This document shows, piece after piece, positions 21,358-64,000 of a stretch of 64,000 nt of DNA (position 1 is the first letter of the stretch; each line of letters begins with the position of its first letter). Below the pieces are notes generated by a model. It did no database searches. It was not told the origin of the DNA and saw only the letters and a program-made list of their open reading frames with translations. The stretch spans positions 36,103,394 to 36,167,393 of the forward strand of contig OZ038383.1 in assembly GCA_964036045.1 (NCBI GenBank), written 5' to 3'. Source of the DNA: Eutreptiella sp. 'Long Island Sound 2002' (Eukaryota > Euglenozoa > Euglenophyceae > Eutreptiales > Eutreptiaceae). Made by a program: the position numbers and the translations under genes.

Positions 21358-24300
21358 TCAGTTTGGAGAATTTCGTCTACCACCCAACGCATCCACCGGT
21401 AGCCGGCCAGTTCTAGAGATAGTCGTGAAACACCGACAATATGTATTTCCGCCCTGTATCATGGAGTTGTGAGGTACAATGCCACGGATAACGAAAGGCT
21501 GGGTTGAGGGCACCGTGAAGTCTCGTTCGCCATGGGGGTGAGAGCTGCGAAGAAACCCTAACAAGACCTAGGAGTGACAAACGTAAGGAGACGCGAGGCA
21601 AACATAGCACAGGGCAAAGCAAACGCCATTCAAGATTATAACGTAGCCCACGTTGACTTTTTGTGCAAGTCCACTTCGAAGAGGGCCACCGTGATGTCCG
21701 CATAATTGTGACGGGGCGGGATATGCACAAGGGCGAGAGCGCGTTGCATGACAAGACAGAGTGTTGCCTGCCTGTGACTAACACGCCAATTGGAGACCAG
21801 CCACAGGCTTAGGTATCGACTCAGGTAACCATACTCAAGAGACCAGACTAGCTGACCGTGGGAGAAGGGGGGGTGAAGCGGGGTGGGGAAGATCAAAGAT
21901 GCATTCATGGATACCCGTGAAGCAAGGGGGTGGGGTGCGACCCTGTAGCAAAGTGGTGGGGAACCCGTAAAGAGAAGTCGCCGAGGGATCATTGGTGACC
22001 GCTCCCCCAGTAATGAAGCGAGGCATGGAAAATGACATTCCAAAAACAACAACGATCCATTGTAGTATCGCAGGGTGTGGCCACTATATGGCTCGGGGGG
22101 CGGCGTAGGACCAAGATGCACGCGGGCACTTGGGTTGAGGTGAAGCCCGGAGAGAAATAAATGTTCATTCCCGTAGCTGTGGGCACGGTGGTCAGGCAAG
22201 GAAGGTACAACAGGCAAGCGATGTCGGGTATGAATGGCAACCACGGAAACGTAGCACAAAACCTACCATATGTCGTAGGGCACGACGTGTGATACCTCTA
22301 CTGAGCAACAACCTCTCATCTGCAGGTGCAACCTCACCCGTAAACCCCAGATAGGCATTTGGGTACGCCAATGGACCGGCGATGGCGGAAGGGCCAATCG
22401 CAGTGCCAAACAAACAATTTCCATAGAAAATGAGAATACACGATGGTGATACACAATTGATAGACCAACACTGTGCAAAGTCTGAAATAGGCAAAGCAAG
22501 TTATGGCAACTCGAAAGAAGTCCAAAAGCGGACAATCCGGGGTGTAATGACGTGGTGTTACCGTGGCCCCGCACATGCAGCACGTGGCAAGCTTGTGGGG
22601 TTTATACAGACCCTGTCTTATTGCTACAATGCATAGATGGACATCCCATTTGATGTAACCCAACATGACAACTCGTTCATACAGAACCAGAGAGGGCGAT
22701 GGAGGGGGGTAGGTTACATCTAGAGCCGAATGTATGCAAGGAGGGATTTTCTTATCCAAAAGAGCGTGCAAATCCTGCACTTGTTGACCACGATGCATGA
22801 AAAGGACTGGGAGCTGCCGGAGTTCCGATATCCACCCATAGCAAGGGACTTGACCTAGACCCTCTTCTCGCGCTAGGCTATTTGCTGCATCCATCACATG
22901 GTCCAAAACTATGCCGGTGAGGTGTGTGTGCAAGTGTTGGGAAGGGGTTGTGGGTTGAATTCAGAGGCGGCAGGCAGTGAGAAGAGAGGTGACCATGGGG
23001 GAGGTGCTGTCGTTTCAAGACCCGAGTGCAGTAATGTAAGATTTGGAGTCTGTGAGGGACCACCTATCACCGCGAAGATACCATCAAGCATGAGCCCGAG
23101 ATTGCAGGACCACCTAGGCTACATTTAGCTCGGCTTGATATGACTTATCACACTAGATGGGGATGGGGATGCAATGTAAGGTGTAATGCCCCGTGGCTAC
23201 ATCAAGGACAACCACAACCCCTCCAGATTGACATCCCGTCGGGAACTAGGAGGCGTCCGCCATGAACACGGCATCCGAAGGGGCCATAGAAAAGTCCGGA
23301 AAATGGGGTTGTAGAGAAAGAGCAGGTATGTCTTCCGATAAGGGTATGGGAAAATCCGTGGGGCGGACACGGATAGATGGGTCCTGGGAGTGATAGGGGA
23401 TAGCCATCTAGCCATCCATAAGTGGGCATCTTCCACTTGCCACCGGGGGTCGCCAAATACAGGGGGCAGTTGACAAATGGCAAATGTAAGTCATGACGCG
23501 GGATGTGACCTTTGATGGACAATCGGTGACATCCAATCACGAACAAGGAGTGGAGCCCTGCGACACGAGGCCATGAGTTTGCGAAGGTCCTATTTGGGGA
23601 AGACATGTGGCAGTGCATGCCCGCCCAAGAGACGGATATAGTCGCCATCTGCCGGCATACATAGGGGCATGCCCGAGAAATGAATGTGTTGCCGGTCGAA
23701 AATGACTTGTTTGCCTCGTATGTTGGTGCCAAAACCAATGGTTTTTTGGTGGTGTCAGAGAACAGATTCGTGAGATTTCCAGCCACAGGCAGGCGGAAAG
23801 CAACTTGTTGAATATCCTGACGCGATGTGCTGATCCACGATGAGTCATCTATCCACCCCAAGTTTCTCAAGGGTGCAGACTGCGAGACTAGCTGTACCCT
23901 TAACTCATTTACCAAACAATACACAAGAGCAAAAATGGGGTTGCCCTGACCCATGCCTACCTCACACATGGCACGGAATAAGCGGACACCCATGGTGTCC
24001 TCCCATGTGCAAAGTAAGATATTGAACCGCATACAGAATGAGTTGAGTGAGGGTGGGATGTACACTTGCAGAGAGGAGAACCGAGCGCAAAATGTCATGA
24101 CTAACCAATCCAAACGCATGCAGAACATTGTCCAGGACCATGTAGGCCCAAAGACCGCTCCACCACCTTTGTTGAACCCAGTTGAAAACAATGTGCAAAA
24201 GGTCCACAACCAAGGTAGATCGCTGCATAGCCATCCCCCATGCGGGCTCTTTTTCGGCAAAAGAGTAAAATCCCCATAATGGAGGGCTTCCGCTTTATAA

Positions 24301-24365
24301 CCTTACAAAAAGAGGTTGTAAAAATTTGCCAGAATGGACAGGTGCTCATCATTGAGGAGAGAGAC
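21358..24365 (-). pseudogene. LINE family 2, reverse transcriptase and CCHC region, frameshifted
   Basis: Read on the minus strand, reverse transcriptase motifs occur in order but in different frames. Motif A appears as HAFGLVSHDILRSVLL (about 24.13 kb; KAFDSVSH-like in intact LINEs), motif B as GMGQGNPIFALVYCLVNE (about 23.95 kb), and motif C as GWIDDSSWIS (about 23.86 kb), where IDD replaces the usual ADD. A thumb-like block FLGHAPMYAGR follows near 23.66 kb. A CCHC-type motif, CCMCGATVTPRHYTPDCP (about 22.58 kb), matches the zinc knuckle near the end of many LINE proteins. Upstream endonuclease sequence is not visible. Intact frames are up to 352 codons (24260-23202), but indels break the protein, so it is dead. 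Its RT is unlike that of the LINE at 53-58 kb. Confidence 0.7.
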
Positions 24366-32144: not shown

Positions 32145-32495
32145 CTATGCCACGTAGTCTACCAAAGACGACGAGCCTTCAGGAGCGGTAGGATGGGAAG
32201 GGTTAGTGGGTGTGGGATTAGCAGATTCTGTCAAAGCCTTTGCTCTCCGGTCATGAGCATACTGCACAATCACAACCATCACTTGTGGCCCCTCGGCCTT
32301 CCCCTTCCAGGTGCCACCCCTTGCAATATCTAGCCACTCAAGGAGGCTGCAGAACGTCAACACATGCACTATGGATTCTTGTCCCATGGTAGCTTGCACA
32401 CATACACCGGCAAGATCACCTGCCGCTGCACGAATACCGGCTTCAGAAAGAGGGCAGTACTCCCGCCCAAGGGTGCCCGCCCAAGCCCAATTCAC
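32145..32495 (-). CDS. Open frame of 116 codons, unrecognised
   Basis: The frame includes LSEAGIRAAAGDLAGVCVQA and EWLDIARGGTWKGKAEGPQV, which look protein-like, and ends in a Pro/Ser/Thr-rich tail. It abuts the tandem array, and the array unit contains related sequence (ACCAATTGTCAACC). No function can be named. Confidence 0.25.
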   Translation of the reverse strand: MNWAWAGTLGREYCPLSEAGIRAAAGDLAGVCVQATMGQESIVHVLTFCSLLEWLDIARGGTWKGKAEGPQVMVVIVQYAHDRRAKALTESANPTPTNPSHPTAPEGSSSLVDYVA

Positions 32496-33218
32496 GACCT
32501 ACAAGGTTACCAATTGTCAACCTGTCAATTTTTTTGGCACCCCCGAAAAAGTGCGTACATATGCCCCTCAAAATGATCGCAACGAAAAATAAAACACGCG
32601 ACTTTTCGATTTTTGGGTCGCCGATAATGGTTTTGGTGAAATATCACCGTTTTAAGCAGCTTTTCAACCAGTGTACGCCGAATAGGGGCTGAATTTTGTC
32701 CCGGCTGCTATGCGCGGATTTGGCCTTCGTTGTTGCCCCTTAAAATGATCGGCTCGTGCCAAAACGTCGGGAAATCAACTTTGTTTGCCGAATGTGGTGG
32801 CGTTTTGTGGTTTTGCAGCAGTTTTGTGCGTTTTCCGGGTAGTTTTGTAGCGAAATGGGGCCAAATTGTTTCTAAAAGCACAAGTTCAACCCGTTTGAGG
32901 GTATCAGTGCATCCCGATGCATAGTTTGCAAGAAGAACCACTTGCTAGGCTCGGTTTCTATGGGGCTTGCCTCACAAAAACCGAGACTAGCCGGCGTGAA
33001 ACTGGTTTTCATATGGTTTTTTTTGGCTTAAAAACCCATCTGTATGGATTGTACGTCGCTGCACAATGGTGGCACAAGTACCGTATGGTATGCATACCCC
33101 CAAAAAAAATTTTGCCATATTTTTTGCCATATTTGGCATGTATACTTGCTGCCCATCTGACAAGGCTTTTTCGCCAATGGGGCAACCATAGTGGGCAAGA
33201 TGCATGAGGCGGCACCCG

Positions 33219-33265
33219 CTAGGCTCCGTTTTTGTGGGGCTTGGCCCCCAAAAACGGAGCCTAGC
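33219..33265. repeat. Array hairpin, type 1 arms
   Basis: GCTAGGCTCCGTTTTTGTGG faces CCCCCAAAAACGGAGCCTAGC-type sequence, a nearly perfect stem of about 20 bp with a very short loop. Equivalent hairpins lie at 32944-32991, 35880-35927, 36595-36642, 37330-37376 and 38055-38100 (interrupted). Confidence 0.8.
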
Positions 33266-33948
33266 GGACGGCGTTGGCGCCGTTGTTCCCATGTTTTCAT
33301 GGTTTTCTCCTTCTCCACTTCTGAATGGTCTTTTTGCCTTCGTGTTCTTTGTCCTCCCCGTTGTCATCTGAACCGTTGCCGTGCGACCCCACCTCGTGCA
33401 ACTTTCCCCCGCTTGTTCAATTTGGGCCCCCCGGCCCGCCTTGCCACGTGCGCGGAGAGGGGGAGGGGCCCCCTCCGCACAAGTCAGAGGCCACCCCCAA
33501 CCCCCTATAATAGGGAACACCCTGACGTCGGTTCTATCACCCCTACACCCTTGCCCCTCAAAATGACCGCCTCAATGAGAAAACTCAAAAAATCACCTTC
33601 GTTTGCTCCGTTTATGCCCGTTTTGAAGAGTTAGCATGCCCGTTTTGAAGAGTTAGCAGGGTTTTAAGCAGTTTTTGAACTAGTCTCCATGAAAACGAGG
33701 CTGAATTTTGCACGCGTTGCTATGCGCTGATTTGACCAATTTGCCCCTTAAAATGACCAGCTCGCCACGAAACGTTAGGAAATAAACTTTGTTTGTTGAA
33801 TTTGGTGCCGTTTTGCGGATTTACTGTCATTTTTGTGGTTTTTGGAGCAGTTTTTGGCTATTTTTTTGACCGATTTGGGAATTACCCGGATGGATACATT
33901 GACACAAAATGAGAATCTCCCGGCTATTAAGGACATTGAACACGCCTT

Positions 33949-33996
33949 GCTAGGCTTGGTTGATGAGGGGTGTGCCCCTCATCAACCAAGCCTAGC
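33949..33996. repeat. Array hairpin, type 2 arms
   Basis: GCTAGGCTTGGTTGATGAGG pairs with CCTCATCAACCAAGCCTAGC, a perfect stem at the same unit position as the type 1 hairpins but with a different arm sequence. A second copy lies at 34674-34721. Both arms have changed together. Confidence 0.85.
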
Positions 33997-36900
33997 ATGT
34001 GGCCGAACGGCCACATGAATTTTATGTATGTTTTGCGCGTATTTTTTTGTGACATTTCACGCATTGCATTTGTGCCGTACAGGGCATGCTTTACGGGGAT
34101 GCTATTTGTTGTAGTTTCCCACACTCTAGATCACCGCCTTCATCCCCTAGTTCAATTTGGGCCCCCCGGCCCGCCTTGCCACGTGCTCGGAGAGGGGGAG
34201 GGCCCCCCTCCGCACAAGTCACAGGCCACCCCCAACCCCCTATAATAGGGAACACCTTGACGTCAAAATTCCGGTTCTATCACCCCTACACCCTTGCCCC
34301 TCAAAATGACCGCCTCAATGAAAAAACTCAGAAAATCACCTTCGTTTCCTCCGTTTATGCCCGTTTCGAACAGTTAGCAGGGTTTTAAGCAGTTTTTCAA
34401 CCAGTCTCCATGGAAACAGGGCTGAATTTTGCACACGTTGCTACGCGCTGATTTGACCCGTGTTATAGCCCCTTAAAATGACCGGCCCGCAACGAAACGT
34501 TGGAAAATAAACTTTTTTTGTTGAATTTGGTGCCGTTTTGCAGATTTACTGTCATTTTTGTGGTTTTTGGAGCAGTTTTTGGCTATTTTTTTGACCGATT
34601 TGGGAATTACTCGGATGGATACATTGACACAAAATGAGAATCTCTCGGCTACTAAAGACATCAAACATGGCTTGCTAGGCTTGGTTGATGAGCAGTGTGC
34701 CCCTCATCAACCAAGCCTAGCATGTGGCCGAACGGCCACATGAGTTTTATGTATGTTTTGCGTGTGTCTTTTGGTTACATTTCACGCAGTACATTTGTGC
34801 CGTCAACGGCATGCTTTACGGAGATGCTATCTGCTGTAGTTTCCCACACTCTAGAACACCACCTTCATCCCCTAGTTCATTCTCCCCCGCCGGGGCCGAA
34901 GAGATTGGCTGAGGCGGGGAGGGTGCCCGCCGAAGCTGAATGAACGGACCACTACGTTACCAATTGTCAACCAAGGAAATTTTTTTGGCACCCCCGCAAA
35001 AGTGCGTACATATGCCCCTCAAAATGATCGGAACCGAAAATAAAATATGCGATTTCCAGATTTTTGGCCCAGTGGTAGTCGTTTTGGTGAAATAGCACCG
35101 TTTTAAGGGTTTTTGACGCAGTTTTCTCAAAATCTGCAGCGAGGCACGATAGGGACGGATCTGAAGTTGCACAACTAAATTTTATATGCCCAATAACGAC
35201 ATATGGCCGTTCATATGGTTTTTTTGGCTTAAAAAACCGTATGTATGGATTGTACGTCGCTACACAATGGTGGCAAAAGTACCGTATGGTATGCATACCC
35301 CAAAGAAGAGCGGGCCGTAATTCTCCGCGATCCGCTCTTGTTCATATCCCCCCCCCCCCCCCGGGGGGCTGGCTTCTGTGAGGATCGGGGTGTAGGGCCC
35401 CTGACCCCGCGCGACAAGCACTGCCCATACTCCATGTTCCGCCACCTCCCCCCCCTTGGAGAACAAGCCTTCTCAAAAACCCATGTAGTTGCCCCTTAAA
35501 TGATTGAAATCAAATTCTAAAAACGCAATCTTTCCCTTTTTTTGTGAACCATAGCCGTTTTGGTGAATTAGCGGCGTTTTAAGCGGTTTCTCGGGCAATG
35601 TCCGGAAATTTGAGGCTGAATTTTGTATAATCTGCTCCTTGCCACATTAGCCAATGTTATCGCCCCTTAAAATGACCAGCCCGGGCCAGATGTTCAAAAA
35701 AATCAATCCCGTTGACCAAAATGGGTGCCGTTTTGATGAATTACATCCAATTTTCTGTTTTTTTTGGCCGTTTTTGGCATATTTTTTGCCATCTTTGGCA
35801 TGTATGGTTGCTGCCCATGTAAAAATCCTTTTTCGCTAAACGGGCAAAAATAGTGGGCAAGAGGCATGAGGCAAGACCCGGTAGGCTCCGTTTTTGTGGG
35901 GCTTGGCCCCCAAAAACGGAGCCGAGCGGACGGCGTTTGCGCCGTTGTTCCCATGTTTTCATGGTTTCTCTTTCTCCGCTTTTGAATGTTGTTTTCCCTT
36001 TGTGTTCCTTGTCCTCCCCGTTGTCATCCGAACCGTTGCTTTGGAACCCCACGTCGTGCAACTTTCCCCCACTTCTTCAAATCCCCGCCCCTGGGGGCTG
36101 GCTTTTGTGGGGGTGGGCCCTTGACCCCGCGCGAGAAGCAGTGTCCATACTCCACGTTACGCCACATCCCCCCCCCCCCCCTTGGAGAACAGCCCTTCTC
36201 AAAGTCCTACCATGTTACCCCTTAAAATGATCGAAATCGAATTCCACGACAGCGACTTTTCCCTTGTTTCGCGGACGATAGTCGTTTTGGTGAAATAGCG
36301 GCGTCTTAAATAGTTTTCCGGGTAGTGTCCGGGAATCTTGCCTGAATTTTGTATTGGCTGCTGCTTGCGAAATCGGCTTGTGTTACAGCCCCTTAAAATG
36401 ACTGGCTCAGGCCAAAACGTCAGAAAATCAAGCGCGTTGGCCAAAAGAGGTGCCATTTACATAATTTGCATCCAATTTGGCAATTTTTTGGCATATTTTT
36501 TGCCATATTTGGCATATATACGTGCTGCCCATCTGACGACCCATTTTTTGCCAAACGAGCAACAATAGTGAGCAAGAGACATGAGGCAGGATCCGCTAGG
36601 GTCCGTTTTTGTGGGGCTTGGCCCCCAAAAACGGAGCCTAGCGGCCGGCGTTTGCGCCGTTGTTCCCATGTTTTCATGGTTTTCTCTTTCTCCGCTTGCG
36701 AATAGTTTTTTTCCCTTTGTGTCCCTTGTCCTCCCCGTTGTCATCCAAACCATTGCCCTCCGACCCCACCTCGTGCAACTTTCCCCCACTTGTTCATACC
36801 CCCCCCCCCCCCCTGGGGGCTGGCTTCTGTGGGGGTCGGGATCTGGGGTCCTTGACCCCAGGCAAGAAGCAGTGTCCATACTCCACGTTACGCCACCCCT

Positions 36901-38100
36901 CCCCTAAAAAAAACAGGCCTTCTCAAAAACTTGCGCAGTTACCGTGTAAAATGATCGAAATGGAAGTCTACGAACGCGTTTTTTCCTTTTTTTCACTAAC
37001 TATAGTCGTTTTGGTGAGTTAGCGGCGTTTTAAGGAGTTTTTCGGGCAATGTCTGGAAATTTGGGGCTGAATTTTGTACTGGCTACTGCTTGCAAAATTG
37101 GCCAAAGATGTTGCCCCTTAAAATGACCGGCTTAGGCCAAAACATGAGAGAAACAATGCCGACGGCGAAAATTTGTGCTGTTTTGATGAGTTCCGTTCAA
37201 TTTTCTTCATTTTCTCGCTGTTTTTCGGCATATTCTTTGATAGTTTGGCATATCTCCTTGCTGCCAATCTGACAAGCCTTTTTCGCCAAACAAGCAACGA
37301 TAGTGGGCAAGAGGCATGGGGCAGGATCCGCTAGGCTCTCCTTTTGTGGGGCTTGGCCCCAAAAAACGGAGCCTAGCGGACGGCGCTTGCGCCGTTGTTC
37401 CCATGTTTTCACGGTTTTCTCTTTCACCGCTTCTGCATATTCTTTTTTCCTTTGTGTTCCTTGTCCTCCCCGTTGTCATCCAAATTGTTGCCCTCCAACC
37501 CCACATTGTGCAACTTTCCCCCACTTGTTCAATCCCCCCCCCCCCCGGAGGGCCCGAAGTGATTTCGCTTCGGCGGGGAGGGTACCCGCCAAAGCGCAAT
37601 TCACGACCGACAAGGGTGTTGATGGCAAATCGCGGTAATGTTTTTTCGCCCCTCCCCAAACGTGTGACATATGCTCCTCAAAATTATTGGCCCGAATTAT
37701 AAAAAAACACAATTTCTCGATTTTTGGGCCATTGATAGTCGTTTTGGTGAAAGAGCACCGTTTTAAGCGGTTTTTCATACCGTCTCTGCCAAATTGGGGC
37801 TGCATTATCTACCAGCTGCTATGCGCGGAGTTGCCCCTTGTTGTTACCCCTTAGAAAGATCGGTTTCTGCCAAAACGTCGGAACATCAATTTTGTTTGCC
37901 AAATTGGGTGCCGTTTTGTGGGTTTACGGTTTTTTTGAGCGTTTTTAGGGCGGCTTTGTAGCAAAATTGTGTCAAATTGTTACTAAAAGCACAATTTCAA
38001 CCCGTTTGAGGGCATCCGTGCGCCTCGATGCATAGTTTGCAAGAAAGAACACTGGCTAGGCTCGGTTTCTGTGGGGCTTGCCCCATAGAAACGGAGACTA

Positions 38101-38129
38101 TATCTTAGGCGGCCCTATACGCACGTAGC
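38101..38129 (+). repeat. Left terminal inverted repeat
   Basis: TATCTTAGGCGGCCC followed by TATACGCACGTAG pairs with the right end, with one one-base indel and one substitution. Confidence 0.85.
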
Positions 38130-38783
38130 AAAATTGCCACAGTTCCCAAATGGGTACCACCCCAAACCGGGGGCTGAAAAACCACTTTGAAAAATTGCAC
38201 AATTGTGCTTTGCAGAGAACACCCCCAAAAACGTGTGAATTGTCCAAAATGACTGTGTGTAGGGGGTACAACATATGCCAGTCAAAAGTCATGTATCCCC
38301 TTCAAATTTGGGCACTGCAGTGTCCATCCAAGGAAAAATAAAATTCTTCCAAATCATCCGCTGCTGCATTTCAAACCATGCCGTAAAATGCAACCTAAAA
38401 AATGAAGCAAGGAGGACGACAGGCAAACACATGCAAAAGTCTGGTTTGCTTTTTGTTACCGCGTCTGCTGACCCAGTCACTGTGATTGTATGCGAAGCGT
38501 CAAGAATGATGCACCACCAGTGGTGCCGACCAACAACGGAGGCGCCGCCAGTGCAGGCAATCCAATAATAAATGACAACAACAATGCCTGCAAAAGAAAT
38601 GGCCCAGCAGGGGTAAAAAAAGGGCGAGTCGCTGAGTTTGGGCACTGCAGCGCCCAAAATTACCAAAACATGAAAAAGGGCACCAGTCTCACACCTGCAT
38701 AGAACAGGACGCGCGACAGTGTGCAAATCGAGGCGAAAAAACTACTGACATGGTCACAGGCAGTGCCAACCGCACAACGCAGT

Positions 38784-41458
38784 CTACTTCTTCTTTGGTG
38801 GAGCCTTCTTACCGTTGGCCTGACCTACTTTGGCGTGAAACATATTGAGGGGGGTACTGTCCTTGGCCTTTTTGGCTGGCCTCTTGGGGGGATCATCAAC
38901 CTCATCCCCACTGTCGTCGGAGGACGGCTTCTTCTTGCTGGGGGTGCTCCTCTTCTTGCTGTCACCACCGACCAGCACGATCTCGTCATCCTCCTCTTCC
39001 TCCACATCGTCCCCCCCCTCCTCATCTTCCCCTTCCCCAGGCCGCTGCACCACAACTGGCATACAGTCCCTAATCCTTGGCATCCAAGCGTCCCAGTTAA
39101 CCAAGTAGACACAGTCCATCTCCTGCACATACGCCGCTAGCTATTCACAGAATTCGTTAAACAAACCCTGGCGCCCAGTGAAGCAAGCTGCCAGACAAGG
39201 GGACTCAGGAAGGCAGGACAGGAGCTGTGCTGGCAATACAGCCGATGCTGTCAAAAGCAGGAGCCAGACTTCATCCTCGGACTGTCTGTCGCGTCGGGGA
39301 ACAATACCAAGCACACGCAGGAGCCAACCAGCCGCTGCCAGACCAATGGTGCTGCCGTATGCACCCTGATCGCAAATGAAAATATTCGGGACCTTCACCC
39401 TAAACTTGTCGGGGACACAGAAGCAAATAGTCCTCTCCTCGAACCGATAGGTCGGGTGACCGACTGCCTGATAAAAAAAAGAGGTCATAATATACTGCCA
39501 GCCTCCACACTCCTCAGAGTCGCGCAATTGATTAACCAGGAACTTAACATCGGCCGCCATTCCACCAATAGCCACAGGTACCAACTTCGCAGCAACCTTC
39601 AGCACCGGGGGATGGATATCGTCCATTTGTTCCTTCGTACACTCAATGAAGACCTGTTGTCAAAAGCACATTTCATTACAGATGGGCACTGCAGTGCCTA
39701 AAGTGACCAGCAATGCGAAATCGATCCGTTTCTTATGCCTAATGGTTGCATACCGCTTTGTACTCCCTCAATGCAATCGTATACGGGATGGCCTTGCCAG
39801 GAACCAACGCGATTGCCTCTGCCCGAGCTCCGGTTGCTTCAGTCCCATCCTGCGGCTTGTTGAGCCAGATAGTTGTTGATTTCTCCCCATCAGTCGTTGT
39901 CACTGCAGTTTCCTTGACAGGCCTCGCCAGCGCAATCCTCAGGTCAGCCCATTCCTCATCCTGCCACAGCGGTGCTTTCTGGATGGTGTCCCAGCTTGGT
40001 AAGGGATTTTCGGCACTCCAGGTCCATTTCCCCAGTGACAATTTGGCGGCCCTCGGCGACTTTGCAAGCAGTTTGCGGACTCTTTGCATTTCATGCACGT
40101 TCACTGTTAGAACAGGAGACCACTGGTACCACTGGGATCGAAACAGCCTTACGTCGTGGGTTCGGGGGGGGGGGGGGGGGTCAACAGCGATCGCGCCAGA
40201 CCCAGCCGCCCCATAAACATACGTCGAGAAGGATGGATGAGCGTGTTGTCCGGGTGAAGGTACAGCATCTCCCACAGGCGGTCCCGCTTCAACAGTCTGG
40301 CCTTGGCATGTAGTCCTGCGATCTTGGCCCCATCTCCACCCATGTACAGCAGTATTTCATCCATCTGGTCGCCATGCAGTCCCGTCAACGTCCGCAGAGT
40401 GTATGGGTTGAGCACTGCAGTGCAAAAATTAGGGTCGCATCGAATTTGGGCACTGCAGTTCCCATGAACACCAAAAGACGACGAAAACAGGTGCTCAGAC
40501 GACATAATACCTTCACCGGCAGTCTTCTCAAAGGTGTCAATAAACTCAGCCATGCGGCCACCACATATCTGCAATAATGAGACCAGCGGTCTCCAATTTT
40601 TCCAGATTGAGTCCTGGCAGGGATACAGTGTTGGACAGGCCACAGGTACGCAAAGGACTGACAACAGTGGTCTCATCCTGCATCTCTCATATCACAGATG
40701 TTTTCTCGCCCAGCCGGCCACACTTCCGCAGAGCCACCAGCAGCATCTCTTTCGCTTTGCCCTTCTGCACTTCAGTCCAAATTCGAGCGGCCACTTGTCC
40801 CATACTCAGCTTGCTCACTGAGTGTTGTACCGTATTGTGATCGCCTCCAATAATCTCTCTGATGTCAACAGGACAGTCGTGTCTGATCTCCTCGCAGTAG
40901 ACGTGTTGTAACCAGTCCGGCAGTGCCCGTGACTTCTCACAGTATTCTCCGTGAAGTCTTTGGAGTGCCGTCAGGATATGAGCCCCGCCCAAGCAGTAGG
41001 GAATTTCAGCTGATAGAAAAATGCACCACAGGGAGATGGTAGATGGGGGATATCAGCGAGATGGGCACTGCAATGCCCAAACGACCAGACTGTGTGAAAA
41101 TTACGACGCGTGTGTGACAGGATGGTAGTGTACCTTCGTTTCGCCATATGAGAATGTTTGAGATAGGCCGGCAGGGTGGATTTGTCCTCAGGCTTGCGAT
41201 CCGCGATAGTACTGAGTCCTCGTCCCTCTCTCTGGTCTGCCCACGCGTGAGGTCGGTGTCAAACTTTATCTTGGTCAGCTGTATCTTGACCAGCTCCTTT
41301 TTGATCCACGTTGTCCGGAATGTTTCCGCTGCCCGGTCTGTCCCCGTCCGCTTCACTGGAGCCTGCCCCGACTGCGCCCGTGTCTTCTCTGCTGTGTGAA
41401 CGGCTTGCGATGCGGTCTGCTGCTCATCCCCTTCCGGCAGTTCGGTATCCGAAGGCAT
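38784..41458 (-). CDS. ORF B: ParB/sulfiredoxin-like domain protein
   Basis: ATG at 41458 begins MPSDTELPEGDEQQTA and follows in-frame stops, so this is a second gene 80 bp after ORF A. Residues about 50-110 read IKKELVKIQLTKIKFDTDL, then RDEDSVLSRIASLRTNPP and RPISNILIW; after intron 41010-41133 comes IPYCLGGAHILTALQRL. This order (beta strand, x-I-x-x-x-x-x-x-R, helix with S-I/L, P-I, then G-G-x-H-x-x-x-A-L) is that of the ParB N-terminal/sulfiredoxin-like fold. The later DHNTVQHSVSKLSMGQ resembles the following N-x-x-x-x-x-S region. The C-terminal half (VPNIFICDQGAYGSTIGLAA; NWDAWMPRIRDC) is unrecognised and ends acidic then basic, GKKAPPKKK. Introns 40415-40510 and 39654-39753 join in frame. 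One in-frame TAG (about 39140) and a C-run frameshift (about 40167-40179) interrupt it; the exon between about 40690 and 40510 is ambiguous. Confidence 0.5.
39654..39753 (-). other. Inferred intron of ORF B containing the palindrome
   Basis: A donor GCG/GTATGC and an acceptor TTTTGACAACAG define exactly 100 nt. Removal joins LREYKA to VFIECTKEQ in frame, and stops lie inside. Palindrome 39684-39699 is central. Confidence 0.7.
40415..40510 (-). other. Inferred intron of ORF B with two palindromes
   Basis: A donor GAAG/GTATTATG and an acceptor GCACTGCAG within palindrome 40410-40425 define 96 nt. The exons join as FEKTAGE and VLNPYTLR in frame. A second palindrome (40448-40463) lies inside. 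Confidence 0.55.
41010..41133 (-). other. Inferred intron of ORF B containing the palindrome
   Basis: A donor AAG/GTACAC and a pyrimidine-rich acceptor TTTTTCTATCAG define 124 nt. Removal joins IWRNE to AEIPYCLGG in frame, and an in-frame TGA lies inside. Palindrome 41063-41078 is in the middle. Confidence 0.6.
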
Positions 41459-41539
41459 AGCTTAGCAAAGGGGCTAACAAAGGGTCACACGACACACTAC
41501 AAAAGGCCACAGGGCTGCAAATTGTTGATTTACAGGCTT

Positions 41540-44500
41540 CTAATGTTGATGACTACTGGCAGTGTTCGACGATTGAACACAGATGGCAGAAATAGCATCA
41601 CAGTCGGATGCACCTGGTAAAAATCGAGGGTCAAACTCATTCAGCTCCGAAAGGACAGCCACGGGGGCGTCGGAATCATCACTTCGAACAGACACTGCTT
41701 CTGGAGGGGGGGGGGTCCGGGTCCCATCCATCATCACCCACAAAATCAGCAGCCCTCAGGTCTGGATCTCCGGCTGCCCCACCAGCAGGGGGGGGGGGGT
41801 CCTCATCACTGTCACTGTCGCCATCAGCATTGGGGGGGGCGGGTATCCGGGCGGGGTCCCTTTGCGCAAAAGCGCGTGCAGGCCGGCGTCGCTTGTACCG
41901 GTCTGGTGTATTACATGCGGGTAACATGTCCTGTGCCTGTGCTACTGTTGTGTCCATATCACCTGGAGGACGCTGTGGCACGTGTCTACCCAGCTCTGTC
42001 ATCACATCAGCATCAACTTTAACAGGTTTAACAAGTGTCTGCAATGTCTTGGCACATAGATCTCGGTAATGCTCTGCAGTGAGCACCGTATCTAGTGCGC
42101 AAGGAAAATCCATCTTGGCAGGATCCCACCTGTCTTGCACGATACTCGACTTCTGACTGGACTAGACCAGGGGGGGTATAACACCAACATCGAATCGCGC
42201 CATCAATCTGGTGAAACGACGATCAACCAGTTGTGGCAGTCCCTTGGGAACATTAACGTACTGCAGGTCCTTTGGGGTCTGGTCTGCAACGGGAGTGAGT
42301 ATAAACAGGTCATGCACCTGTTGCAACGTACAGTTCCCAGGGTGTTGTGCCATTAAGTGCACAACACGGCTTAACAGGGCCTCACACGGTTCCTCACTGT
42401 GTGCCACCCCAGGTAAGCGGGCAAACCACTGGGACCACAACAGCCTAGCAACAACAATGGTGCGCACATATTCAACCTTGTCCTCATAACCTAGGGTGAG
42501 CCTCAGAAGGACGTGTAGACAACGGCTCAACAATGGCCCTGCAGCGTGCTGCTCTCCCTGTGCCGACCAATGACAATCCCTCACTTGCGACCCAATAATA
42601 AACAAGGCTGGAATGTAACCATACAGCAGTGTTACCAACCCTTGCACCTATGTAAGAAGTGTGCTGTGATTAGCGTTACCCGGTCGGTGCAAACCCCTTA
42701 GAGTCTGTAACTTCTGTTCCAAAGGTTGGCGCCACTTATGGGCCAAGTGCAAGAGCACCAGAATCATACGCTCCATATAGATGAGTTTCGGAAAGTTGGG
42801 CACTGCAGTGCCCAAATTGAGTGAACCATAGGAAAAATAGGTAAATAAAGGGAAGAATCTTCTGTAGCACAGGGTTACACAATATTTATATGGGTGCCAT
42901 GTGCCGTACACTACCGGGGTACGTGTAATGAACAGGGGCACGTTGTACCGAGCATAGCTGATGTTGTAAACGAGCTTAAGGACACGGTAGTGAATATTTT
43001 CGTCCACCAACAATGGAAGACGGTGCTGTGTGTGCTGCTGCACCTCCTGGAGCCCGTGAATAATAGAGACAAGGTCGGGGGTAGCGGACACAGTTAGGTC
43101 TGTGAGAAAAAAGGGGGTCCAAGCTGGGCTGGTAACATTATCCCGTCGTATGTCCAAGGGACAACGAACATGTTGAAGGCGGATGGGGTCGTCCATCAAC
43201 CCTTGCAAGCCATCAATGAAGTTTTTATGGCTCTGCACCAACAAGTCTGCAGTGTACCCAATCCTCTGCCGCAAGACCGAGAGGCTAGGAAAAGACGGCA
43301 TAATGTCGACAGGTCGTTTCAAGAGTATGATAGCACTAGCTGTACAATTAAGGGACCGGTTCTCATTACCAGGCACAGGCCGGAAGTTACGTCTATAAAA
43401 ATTATCAAACCATAGAACAGCGGGTTTACCTTCCAAGGTCTGCCAAAGACTGGTGCACGCAGTTGCTCCTTGAACTGCAAAAGAGGGTACATGGTAAGAA
43501 CATTGACCCATGTGAGCCAAACACCTACGTTGCACACGACTCTTGGGTTGAACACCTACAGCCCTCTTGGCACGTGGACGACACCTCTTGTGTAGAACAG
43601 ACCATATATTAAAAATCTCTTGCTCAGCAACACGGAACCGTTGGTCCGGCAGACAATTAACGGTCCGCCTGTCCCTTTGTTGGATGTATTCACCAACAGA
43701 CCGCCTACTTCTCCACTCCAACCGGAGATCTAACACCCACGTACAAAACGCATCGGCACCCTTATCCACACCCACAGCCTTAGATAGATCCTCCTTTGAA
43801 GCATATACCTTCGAACTAAGGAACTACCGGAAGGGAGCCGCATCCATGGACAAAAGTCCTGTTCGCAGGCAGCAAAGGTAAGGAGACAAAGAAAACAGAG
43901 ACACTATCACAAAACAAACCTGATGCGGCATAGACCAAAAGCAGCTAGCGAAGATCCAAACAATGTATCTCCCAATGGACGTGGAACGTTCCAAAGCCTG
44001 GGTACACTCCAAGGTGGCAGTCAGACAACCAGCAATATATTTCCAATGAGCAGAGGATGAGTACCAACGTCCGATGATTCATACGTCCTTTGTCAGGTGT
44101 TACGCAATGGGAACCAATAGGAGTGAAATACGGAGTTTTAAATTTTTTGGACACTGCAGTGCCCAAAAGTCCTGGAAGTCCATTTTCAAGTGCACATTTG
44201 GACAGGAATGGAAGTGATTGGGCAAGGTACGTTGTACGTGGCCTTCCGAGTATAACACCGCGGTGCGATGACCCATGGATAACGGGTATGCCAAGTTTTG
44301 ATGCATGCTGCTGCAGTATGACATCACCTGTGGAGATGACTACAGAGGTGTACTGGAGAACCCACTGAAAAAAGCCATTTCAAATTTTTGGGCACTGCAG
44401 TGCCCAAAAATTTTAAATGATACAATTTTCAGCCCGGAATAGGGGGTGTATACGTACACCTCGTACACCTCTGGAAGCAACAAAAGGCAAGGTTGTTGTA

Positions 44501-44603
44501 TCCCACGATGAAAATCCACGTGGGGTTGGCCGAAAAAATGATATGCTTTTTTGGGGGGCAAAAAACGGATGTTGAAATCGCCATGAATCGTGCCTTTTAG
44601 CAA
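41540..44603 (-). CDS. ORF A: large transposon protein, possible transposase
   Basis: The frame begins just inside the right TIR (GDFNIRFLPPKKAYHFFGQP), continues through intron 44365-44423 into TSVVISTGDVILQQHASKLG, and later has a long open stretch from about 43823. There, GKPAVLWFDNFYRRNFRPVP has an Asp in a WFDNF context like the second catalytic Asp of many RNase H-fold transposases, and LPLLVDENIHYRVLKLVYN supplies further acidic residues; neither assignment is proven. After intron 42803-42880 come a helical region (LLHLAHKWRQPLEQKLQTL) and an acidic tail (GDSDSDEDPPPP). In-frame TAG codons lie at about 43824, 42648 and 42162 and a C-run near 41705 shifts the frame. The exons between about 44230 and 43870 are not resolved. 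It stops at TAG 41540 or splices just before it. No known family was recognised with confidence. Confidence 0.5.
42803..42880 (-). other. Inferred intron of ORF A using the palindrome as acceptor
   Basis: A donor GTGTAA after TATT and an acceptor GGCACTGCAG give a 78-nt intron whose removal joins HPYKY to LPNFPKLIY in frame. The acceptor is the left half of palindrome 42798-42813. Confidence 0.45.
44365..44423 (-). other. Inferred intron of ORF A with perfect 32-bp palindrome
   Basis: GTATCA opens and CTTTTTTCAG closes a 59-nt intron; removing it joins SGLKI to WVLQYTSVV in frame. A perfect 32-bp palindrome centred on GGGCACTGCAGTGCCC (44382-44413) fills over half of it. Confidence 0.65.
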
Positions 44604-44608
44604 CGAAG

Positions 44609-44638
44609 TCTACGTGCGTAAAGGGCCGCCTAAGTATA
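44609..44638 (-). repeat. Right terminal inverted repeat
   Basis: CTACGTGCGTAAAGGGCCGC followed by CTAAGTATA is the complement of the left end. Confidence 0.85.
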
Positions 44639-44640
44639 TA

Positions 44641-58149: not shown

Positions 58150-61100
58150 GGGAGTCCAATTATGGCGCCCGGCCGCTGGACTCTGGGCTGAGCTCTTCGC
58201 TGCTCACCCGCTCCAGTAGTGTTCCAACGTTCGAGCCAACGTCCGCCGTTCATTCCCTAGTCGCTGGACTCTGGGCTAAGCTCTTTCGCTGCTCACACAC
58301 TCAAGTAGTGTGACTTTGGGTTTGTGCTAGAGCGGTTGAGCAGTGACAGAGCTCAACCTAGAGCCCACAGACCAAGGGAGAAAACGGCGGACGGCAGTGC
58401 CAGGGTTCGAACCCACGTCCGCAGTTCTCTCCCGTGGCTTCTCGACTTTGAGGTGAGCTGTATCGCTGCTCATCTGCTCCAATTGTGTGGCAGGGTTCGA
58501 ACGTCGGCCGTTCTGTCCCCTGGCCTCTGGAATGTGGGCTCGAGTTCTGTCCTCTAGCCTCCGAAATCTGGGCTGAGTTCCGTCGCTGCTCACTCGCTCC
58601 ATTAATGTGCCAAGGTTCGAACCGACGTCCGCAGTTCTCTCCCGTGGCCTCTCAACTCTAGGGTCAGTTCCGTCGCTGCTCACACGCTGCGGCAGTGTGC
58701 CGTTGGGTTTGAACCGACGTCCGTTGTTCTCTCCCGTGGCTTGTGCACTCTGGGCTCAGGTCTGTCCTAGCTCTGCCACTTCAATAGTGTGGTAGGGTTG
58801 CAACCGATGCCCGCTATTCTCTCCCGTGGCCTCAACTCTGGGCTGAGCTTTGTAGCCCCTCGCCCGTTCCAATAGTGCGCATGGGTTTGAACCGGCGAAC
58901 GCCGTTCTCTCCGTTGGCCTCCGGACTCTCGGCCGATCTCCGTCGCTGCTCACCCGGTCCAATTGTGTGAGAGGGTTCGGACTGATGTCCACCGTTGGCT
59001 CCCCCGGCCTTTGGACTTTGGGGTAAGCTCTATGGCTGCGCACGCACTCTAGTAGTATACCTCGCTTGAAACCGGCGTCCATCGTCCTCTTTGGATTGAG
59101 CTGTGTCGCAACTCACCCGCTGCAATAGTGTGAAAGGGTTCGAACCGACGACTGCCGTTCTCTCCATTGGCCTGTGGACTCTAGGCTTAGCTCTGTTACA
59201 GCTAACCTGATCAATTAGTGTGCCAAGGTTCGAACTAACCTCCGTCGTTCTCTCCTCTGGCCTTTGGACTTTGGGCTCAGCTCTGTCGATGCTGGCCCGC
59301 TCTCCGCTCTAGTAGTGTGCAAGGTTTGAACCAACGTCCGCCATTCTCTCCGGTGGCCTCTGGACTTTGGGCTAAGCTCCGTTGCTACTCACCGGCTCGA
59401 GTAGTGTGCCAAAGTTTGAACGGACGTCCGCCATTCTCTCCCGTGGCCTCTCGACTTTCAGCTGAGCTCTGTCGCTCCTCACCCGCTCTAGTAGTGTGTG
59501 TGGGTTCCAACCAACCATCACCGTTCTCTCCTGTGGCCTTTTGACTCTGGACTACGCTCCGTCGCTGCGCATCCGCTCTACCAGTGTGCCAAGGCTCGAA
59601 CCAATGCCCGTTGAACCCTCCCCAAGTCTCTAGACTCTGGGCTGAGCTCTGTCGCTGCTTACCCACTCCAGCGGTGTGCCTTTGGGTTCGAACCAACGTC
59701 CGCCTTTTTGGCTCTTGGCCTCTGGACTCTTGGCTCTCGTTTCCAACCTAGGCGCATTTTTGGAGCAACGACGGAGCTTAGCCCATAGTCCAGAAGCCGG
59801 GGGAGAGAACGGCAAACGTCGGTTTGAACCGAGGCGTACTAATGGAGCAGGTGAGCAGCGACAAAGCTGAGCCGTAAGTCCCAAGGCGAGGGGAGTGAAC
59901 AGCCAACGCCAGTTCCAACCCTGGCACACTACTAGAGAGGATGAGCAGCGACAAAGCTGAGCCGTAAGTCCAGGGGCGAGGGGAGTGAACTGCCAACGCC
60001 AGTTCCAACCCTGGCACACTACTAGAGAGGATGAGCAGCGACAAAGTTGGGCCGTAAGTCCGAAGGCGAGGGGAGTGAACAGTCAACGTCAGTTCCAACC
60101 CTGGCACACTACTAGAGAGGATGAGTAGCGACAAAGCTGAGCCGTAAGTCCAGAGGCGAGGGGAGTGAACTGCCAACGCCAGTTCGAACCCTGGCACACT
60201 ACTAGAGAGGATGAGCAGCGACAAAGCTGAGCCGTAAGTCCGAAGGCGAGGGGAGTGAACAGTCAACGTCAGTTCCAACCCTGGCACACTACTAGAGGGG
60301 ATGAGCAGCAACAAAGCTGAGCCGTAATTCCAGAGGCGAGGGGAGTGAACTGCCAACGCCAGTTCCAACCCTGGCACACTACTAGAGAGGATGAGCAGCG
60401 ACAAAGTTGGGCCGTAAGTCCCAAGGCGAGGGGAGTGAACAGCCAACGCCAGTTCCAACCCTGGCACACTACTACAGAGGATGAGCAGCGACAAAGCTGA
60501 GCCGTAGATCCAGAGGCGAGGGGAGTGAACAGCCAACGCCAGTTCCAACCCTGGCACACTACTAGAGAGGATGAGCAGCGACAAAGCTGAGCCGTAAGTC
60601 CGAAGGCGAGGGGAGTGAACAGTCAATGTCAGTTCCAACCCTGGCACACTACTAGAGAGGATGAGGACCGACAAAGCTGAGCCGTAAGTCCGGGGGCGAG
60701 GGGAGGGAACAGCCAACGCCAGTTCGAACCCTGGCACACTACTAGAGCGGATGAGCAGCGACAGAGCTGAGCCCAGAGTGCAAGAGCCAGCGGATAGACC
60801 GGCGGACGTCGGTTCCAACCTGTCGCAATATTGGATCACGTGAGTTGTGACAGAACTCAGCCCACAGAGAACGGCGCATGCCGGTTCCAAGGCACACATA
60901 CTACTAGAGTGGGTGAATAGTGGCAGGTGGGAAGCAACAAAGCTCAACCTAGAGTCCAAAAGCTAGTGGAGAGAACGGAGGACGTCGGTTCCAGCCCATG
61001 CATACTACTAGAGGGGGTGAGTAGCAACGGTGCTCAACGCAAAGTCCAGAAGAGTCTAGAGGGCAGCGTCGAGAAAGGCGCACGTCGGTTTGCACCTAGA

Positions 61101-63386: not shown

Positions 63387-64000
63387 TTTAGGAATCACAA
63401 GTTGCCCGCCCCCACCTGGCGCTATGGCCCATGGAAGTCCATGTTGTAGTGAGGAGAAAAGTATGTGAAAAGGGGTGTTTTTTTTGGGTATCCATACCCC
63501 CCTGGTGGCAACAAGCAAAAACAAGGTGTGTATTTGAAATATATGCCATTATTTGCATTTCTGGCAACACACAAATTTTCAAAATAAACATATTCAATCA
63601 CCAAAATATAGTGTTGTTTTACATTTAGACCACTGCACTCCAGTGCCCGGGGGGGGGGGGGGACTGCCTATTGTTCCTCTGACCCCTTTGTTCCATGGTG
63701 ATCACAGAACCTCCCTATACACCACAGGTTCAGGAACCCCAAACATACGTTTCATCGAAGCACACAGAAAACTATCCCCAAAGCATGTACCTGTATTTCC
63801 TATTCTAACCAACCTGGCCGAAATGTCGGCCAACTCTTCGGAAAACGTCAAAACACATGGTCCTATTTAGCAGACGGGCCTAAGCTGGCCGAAATTTTGG
63901 CCAGGTCCATCGAAACTCGAAATACGATCACTGAAATGGGTACCTATGACAGTAGACAGGAGCAAAGAACACAGGAGCAGCGACATTTCAGCATGGTGTG

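Follow-up and report, generated by a model that had tools for sequence, protein, structure and literature searches.

Family-specific palindromes dispersed through a euglenid DNA transposon as candidate binding sites of an element-encoded protein

We analysed a stretch of 64,000 nucleotides from the genome of Eutreptiella sp. 'Long Island Sound 2002' (contig OZ038383.1, positions 36,103,394 to 36,167,393; hereafter the window). The window contains a cut-and-paste DNA transposon that is present in many copies in the genome and is degenerate here. It carries a transposase gene (gene A), a second gene (gene B) and nine dispersed copies of a 16-bp palindrome. A sister family in the same genome has similar ends, genes and exon layout and an unrelated palindrome, some copies of which lie in corresponding introns. 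These comparisons suggest that the palindromes are binding sites co-evolving with a protein of the element, probably that of gene B. Gene B is accordingly presumed to encode an accessory protein and the palindromes to be its family-specific sites, protein and sites changing together between families; judging from the sequences, we give this reading a probability of roughly 0.6.

The nine sites of the focal element (family 1) spell TTTGGGCACTGCAGTGCCCAAA with small deviations: two are exact, six have one mismatch and one, at 40410, has three. When the whole window was scanned with up to three mismatches, ten matches were observed, whereas the shuffled window gave a mean of 0.63 and a largest count of 3, and none of 100 shuffles reached ten. 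An earlier reading of the window (the original prediction) had nine palindromes confined to the element. Nine sites indeed lie inside it, but only two are exact, and the tenth match, with three mismatches, lies outside at 63633. From left to right, site 1 (38310-38325) and site 2 (38640-38655) lie 3' of gene B, and site 3 (39684-39699) lies in gene B intron 4, as placed by splicing; each has one mismatch. Site 4 (40410-40425), at the boundary of gene B intron 3 and exon 4, is the weak one, with three mismatches here and four in 3 of the 10 copies compared below. Site 5 (40448-40463) lies in the possible intron 3 and has one mismatch. Site 6 (41063-41078), in gene B intron 1, has one mismatch here and is exact in 9 of 10 copies, and site 7 (42798-42813), exact in 10 of 10, is inside the coding sequence of gene A. 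Sites 8 (44149-44164; one mismatch) and 9 (44390-44405; exact in 9 of 10 copies) are 5' of gene A.

Subsequently, the sites were compared among ten complete copies of family 1, namely the window copy, L019-L025, L027 and L029, which were also used for the other ten-copy statistics. The positions recurred in all ten, and each site had its own variant common to most copies; site 5, for example, reads GGGCACTGCAGTTCCC in 10 of 10. Hence, the sites have long been part of the family. Intact copies lacking the palindromes, which the original prediction had named as evidence against itself, were not seen in family 1: the sites were present in all ten copies, save for a deletion at 38640 in one copy and the additional mismatch at 40410. 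Furthermore, the frequency of minor alleles within the sites was half that of the flanking positions (14/1430 and 213/9998, respectively, p 0.002), with 1096/65083 over all columns. Because related copies contribute non-independent cells, this and the other p values serve only as a guide.

We also examined the distribution of the palindrome in the assembly (2.28 Gb, 2205 contigs; the window lies on the contig labelled C6). The exact 16-mer was found at 866 places and its reversed control at none. The 25 loci fetched for the exact 16-mer all belonged to family 1. They covered 49 of the 50 listed places among the 866, all on contig C1, C1:86756539 being left out. Twenty of these loci comprised 12 with two or three exact sites at the family spacing and 8 with single or odd sites, and five were added later; L030 and L039, which overlap, may represent a single element, and L015-L018 were left out of the separate analysis. 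Four loci (L031, L035, L036 and L037) were non-coding elements of about 3.4 kb that have only their ends in common with family 1 and nevertheless kept six or seven palindromes. In L031, the ends matched family 1 with 91% identity over 636 bp and 75% over about 490 bp. The end sites of the non-coding relatives were conserved at 61/64 and 62/64 positions, more than the remainder of the ends (939/1136, p 0.005, and 910/1136, p 0.0002, respectively). CTGT-like repeats abounded in the interior of these elements, and L031, L035 and L037 also contained a large inverted duplication inside the element; some interior sites are arms of this duplication, so that not all of them are independent. L041, L042 and L043 are further deletion derivatives of family 1.

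The sister family (family 2) was recognised by its transposase P0009, a homologue of gene A that is 36-41% identical to it. P0009 matched 12 loci in the same genome at 52-100% identity, among the 80 scored of 8016 candidates. The only stop-free locus sits in an element of 6427 bp with the ends CTTAGGTGGCCCT and the duplication TACAA/TACAA. A tblastn search against that stretch alone showed gene B exons in the same order and 30-38% identical (E 7e-35, 2e-29, 7e-14 and 3e-9). The family 1 palindrome was absent from this element within three mismatches. Instead, six perfect copies of ATGAGCCATGGCTCAT were found, and in four of these the perfect palindrome extended to 24 bp. The element held no other perfect 16-bp palindrome; 200 shuffles of the element gave a mean of 0.12 such palindromes, and none contained the same one twice. 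Two of the six copies lie in introns that match gene B introns 1 and 4 by their homologous exon ends, both of which hold sites in family 1. Two others precede gene A on its 5' side and one follows gene B on its 3' side, places that hold sites in family 1 too; the last is probably between the genes. Among eight family 2 loci read, six had at least one copy of ATGAGCCATGGCTCAT within three mismatches and two had none, and none of the eight had the family 1 site. These results indicate that the palindromic form, its length and part of its places persist while the sequence is replaced. Separately, the near-palindrome TACAGCAATTGCTGTA was observed once per locus in L047, L049 and L050, apparently inside the family 2 transposase frame, and with two mismatches in L044, L045, L046 and L051.

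A protein partner would be superfluous if the palindromes were by-products of splice signals, codon runs, gene conversion or hairpin-driven duplication. The CTGCAG core is usable as a 3' splice site in the model of site 40410, and the interior sites that are arms of the inverted duplication in the 3.4-kb elements would fit such an origin as well. However, sites also occur in untranslated parts and in non-coding elements, their sequence is kept where the flanks change, and in family 2 the equivalent introns carry another palindrome; we regard such an origin as very improbable.

The symmetry and length of the sites point to a protein of the element that binds as a dimer. The protein of gene B in family 1, as a dimer, would bind GGGCACTGCAGTGCCC at sites along the whole element, including those close to either end, and so would mark the element's own DNA. 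The bound protein would most likely help to bring the two ends together or make them accessible to the gene A protein, as TnpA in En/Spm, and removal of host silencing, as by VANC in VANDAL, would be a second or alternative outcome. Protein and palindrome would change together as families diverge. The original prediction that a protein of the element binds the palindromes thus gains support from the conservation of the sites, their retention in non-coding derivatives and their replacement in the sister family, while binding itself is still inferred. The data are compatible alike with synapsis or anti-silencing, and with the product of gene A or gene B as the binder.

The transposase encoded by gene A might itself bind the palindromes as subterminal sites, gene B then doing something else. 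Each end is indeed accompanied by two nearby sites at fixed spacing, and this holds for the non-coding elements and the internally deleted L043 too. Transposase subterminal motifs are normally confined to element ends, whereas here sites are also found in the middle of the element, in gene B introns of both families and, in family 1, in the coding sequence of gene A. We therefore consider gene A an unlikely binder. Two observations favour gene B: the sites are not restricted to the ends but extend into the body of the element, and they diverge in parallel with the accessory gene.

Another explanation takes gene B as mainly an anti-silencing protein of the VANC type, which would bind the family motif across the element and remove DNA methylation, thereby permitting expression of its own family alone. 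According to PMC5735166, VANC21 recognises a short motif that reaches high density at VANDAL21 loci alone, and introns too contain VANC21 target repeats. The different palindrome of the sister family would fit such co-evolution. Furthermore, among the ten copies, C-to-T changes were more frequent at CTG (75/3270), CAG (56/3270) and CG (89/5700) than at CHH (141/19860) and CCG (8/1540), as expected if the copies were methylated at the former contexts; the aligned copies look as if methylated at CWG and CG and not at CCG. On the other hand, VANC motifs are dense and in the same orientation, whereas here six to nine palindromes are dispersed, and gene B has no library match to anything. On this analogy, a mainly anti-silencing role for gene B is conceivable, if somewhat doubtful. 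As a separate observation, TAG and CTA were in excess over expectation in the window.

The anatomy of the element was determined by comparison with other copies. It extends over 6531 bp (38104-44634) and reads CTTAGG...CCTAAG, with terminal inverted repeats of 25 nt that are 96% complementary (38104-38128 on the plus strand and 44610-44634 on the minus strand, from an inverted-repeat search); in the copies compared, the ends read CTTAGGCGGCCC or CTTAGGCGGCTC. The focal element is flanked on both sides by TATAT (38099-38103 and 44635-44639), a 5-bp target duplication. Of the first 20 loci fetched for the exact 16-mer, 7 without a recognisable end were left out, and perfect 5-bp duplications stood beside CTTAGG...CCTAAG in 13 of the 13 remaining. 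Inverted ends, a duplication of fixed length and two genes bear out the DNA transposon that the original prediction had proposed at 38101..44638 with 28-bp inverted ends, although its extent and the length of its ends needed correction. The TA duplication proposed at the same time was wrong, as TATAT in the window and the 13 other copies show. Nor was the matching empty site at 32980 borne out: the satellite unit near 32985 reads GAGAC-TA-GCC and not the expected GAGAC-TATAT-AGC, and hence is a paralogous site rather than the exact pre-insertion sequence. The insertion target is a tandem array of a 725-735-bp satellite (window 32470-38100), the units of which contain a hairpin-forming stretch, CTAGGCTC...GAGCCTAG. 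Elsewhere in the window, two minus-strand open frames were noted: one at 23202-24302 (366 amino acids) that resembles a reverse-transcriptase fragment on visual inspection, and one at 59778-60962 (394 amino acids) whose protein consists of short tandem repeats.

Gene A (41679-43847, minus strand) was identified as a one-exon gene by comparison with homologues. In the focal copy it has three in-frame TAG stops, at codons 8, 400 and 562, whereas its homologue P0001 (696 amino acids, standing for 288 member sequences) is a single open frame across these positions. Accordingly, of the two intron-containing genes originally proposed, both genes and the introns of gene B stand, but gene A is intronless. 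The C-terminal end varies among copies, the frame being shifted by homopolymer runs; P0001 stops after 696 residues. Two further open frames, P0003 and P0006, fuse pieces of genes A and B, i.e. they come from internally deleted copies. Gene A gave no match in Pfam, and its relatives in public records reach down to about 26% identity. When its predicted fold was compared with known transposases, as had been proposed as a check, it matched an RNase H-like DDE transposase, the best matches in the Protein Data Bank (PDB) being P element, Hermes, Transib, ISCth4 and RAG1. The predicted fold has an RNase H core with an inserted helical domain, as in the P element, hAT (Hermes) and Transib/RAG1 transposases. 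The catalytic residues D, D and E were conserved in an alignment of 20 rows: D144 in 15 of 15 spanning rows, D282 in every row and E486 in 18 of the 19 rows with a residue there, the sole exception being P0019, the tail of which is unrelated. Gene A is thus predicted to encode a DDE transposase that acts on inverted repeats ending in CTTAGG and leaves 5-bp duplications.

Gene B, also on the minus strand, was spliced by hand and checked against copy variation. Exon 1 (41134-41458), homologous to family 2 exon 1, contains the start codon and the first half of a putative ParB/sulfiredoxin (Srx)-like stretch, and exon 2 (40696-41009), likewise compared with family 2, contains the second half. Exon 3 (40511-40568), defined with the help of the homologue P0029 (123 member sequences), is possibly continuous with exon 4 (40179-40414). 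Exon 4 ends in a C/G homopolymer after which the frame changes in the focal copy, and P0029 reads through it; the continuation past the homopolymer is at 39754-40161. The last exon (38784-39653, from its translation and copy variation) has one in-frame TAG in the focal copy and encodes an acidic and then lysine-rich tail. Among the ten copies, introns 1, 2 and 4 varied by 2.6-3.15% (3.06, 3.15 and 2.6%) and exons by 1.29-2.05%, and synonymous changes were commonest in the chosen frame for the exons tested, the margin in exon 4 being slight. The putative intron 3, which holds sites 40410 and 40448, may be coding, since its variation of 1.98% resembles that of the exons, its frame is open and P0029 continues through it. 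Four proteins, each of them a fragment, were retrieved when databases were searched with gene B; they were 61-94% identical to it where they matched, and no remote relative was among them.

The original prediction had also assigned gene B to the ParB/sulfiredoxin pattern. The order of motifs in the hand-spliced exons 1 and 2 does follow the ParB N-terminal pattern, but the spliced N-terminal part matched no Pfam family, no NCBIfam family and no PDB entry, and no BLAST match supported ParB. Against a ParB profile built from nine collected proteins, the score of the single gene B sequence was at chance level, being reached by 28 of 200 shuffles; hmmsearch with the profile ranked gene B 142 of 1619 sequences listed from 2280 given (shuffles and window open reading frames). 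A profile of gene B from both families fared better: its hhalign score (E 0.048, probability 1.1%), in register with the ParB boxes, was reached by 1 of 200 column shuffles. The GGxR-type motif reads LGGAH in family 1 and IAKQH in family 2, the H and the following A being kept and the GG not. Taken together, these sequence features are suggestive and weakly support a ParB-like gene B. If gene B encoded a true ParB/Srx-fold protein, the palindromes might be parS-like centromere sites for spreading or DNA bridging. The motif order, the two-family profile and the ParB-like accessory genes on record in algal transposons (PMC12477816) would agree with such a role. However, the lack of a profile match, the single-sequence result, the loss of GG in family 2, the uninformative predicted fold of exon 2 alone (mean pLDDT 51) and the failure to see a ParA-type gene besides genes A and B make us regard parS-like centromere sites as decidedly unlikely.

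We then compared the element with known systems. Transib and RAG make 5-bp duplications, as the focal family does, and have CAC-type ends, which the focal family does not; hAT and P elements make 8-bp duplications, against 5 bp in 13 of 13 focal family copies. The P element, hAT (Hermes) and Transib/RAG1 transposases gave no sequence match to gene A, and the CTTAGG ends differ from theirs. The transposase family lies outside the curated libraries searched (Pfam and NCBIfam). Sola1-1_Ec32 of Ectocarpus and other algal transposons carry an accessory protein that is both ParB-like and a DNA methyltransferase (PMC12477816), so that ParB-like accessory genes have been described in DNA transposons before. 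That system differs in its 1104-amino-acid methyltransferase fusion, its 21.5-kb Sola element and the opposite strand of the gene, and section 5 of that article describes no palindromes. Neither Pfam nor visual inspection revealed a methyltransferase in the focal element. In our searches of the open-access literature, we found no transposon with family-specific dispersed palindromes exchanged between sister families.

Few cases show how a transposon recognises copies of itself, or how a binding protein and its scattered sites can evolve jointly while both keep working; here, co-evolution is directly testable by swaps of protein and site between the families. More tentatively, from the same sequences, there may be a superfamily of eukaryotic DDE transposons in which each family has its own palindromic address of 16-24 bp, read by a co-evolving accessory protein that has a domain derived from ParB/Srx; protein and sites would form a self-recognition system changing in step between sister families in one genome.

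The nearest functional parallels are two plant systems. In En/Spm, TnpA is the product of a second gene, binds repeated subterminal 12-bp motifs of its own element and is needed for transposition and demethylation; the element has CACTA ends, a 3-bp duplication and sites confined to the ends. Gene B is likewise a second gene, inferred to bind the repeated sites of its own element, whereas the focal element has CTTAGG ends, a 5-bp duplication and sites also in the body. MULEs have their own type of ends with 9-bp duplications and differ from the focal element in both respects. VANDAL21/VANC21, a sequence-specific anti-silencing system of an Arabidopsis MULE, has an accessory gene, a family-specific short motif that also occurs in introns, and related families with different targets (PMC5735166), features that the focal element appears to share. 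Its motif is directional, 9 bp long and of high density, against 6-9 dispersed copies of a 16-22-bp palindrome here, and gene B matches no Pfam or NCBIfam family. By analogy with both systems, gene B and its palindromes most likely form a binding module like that of TnpA or VANC.

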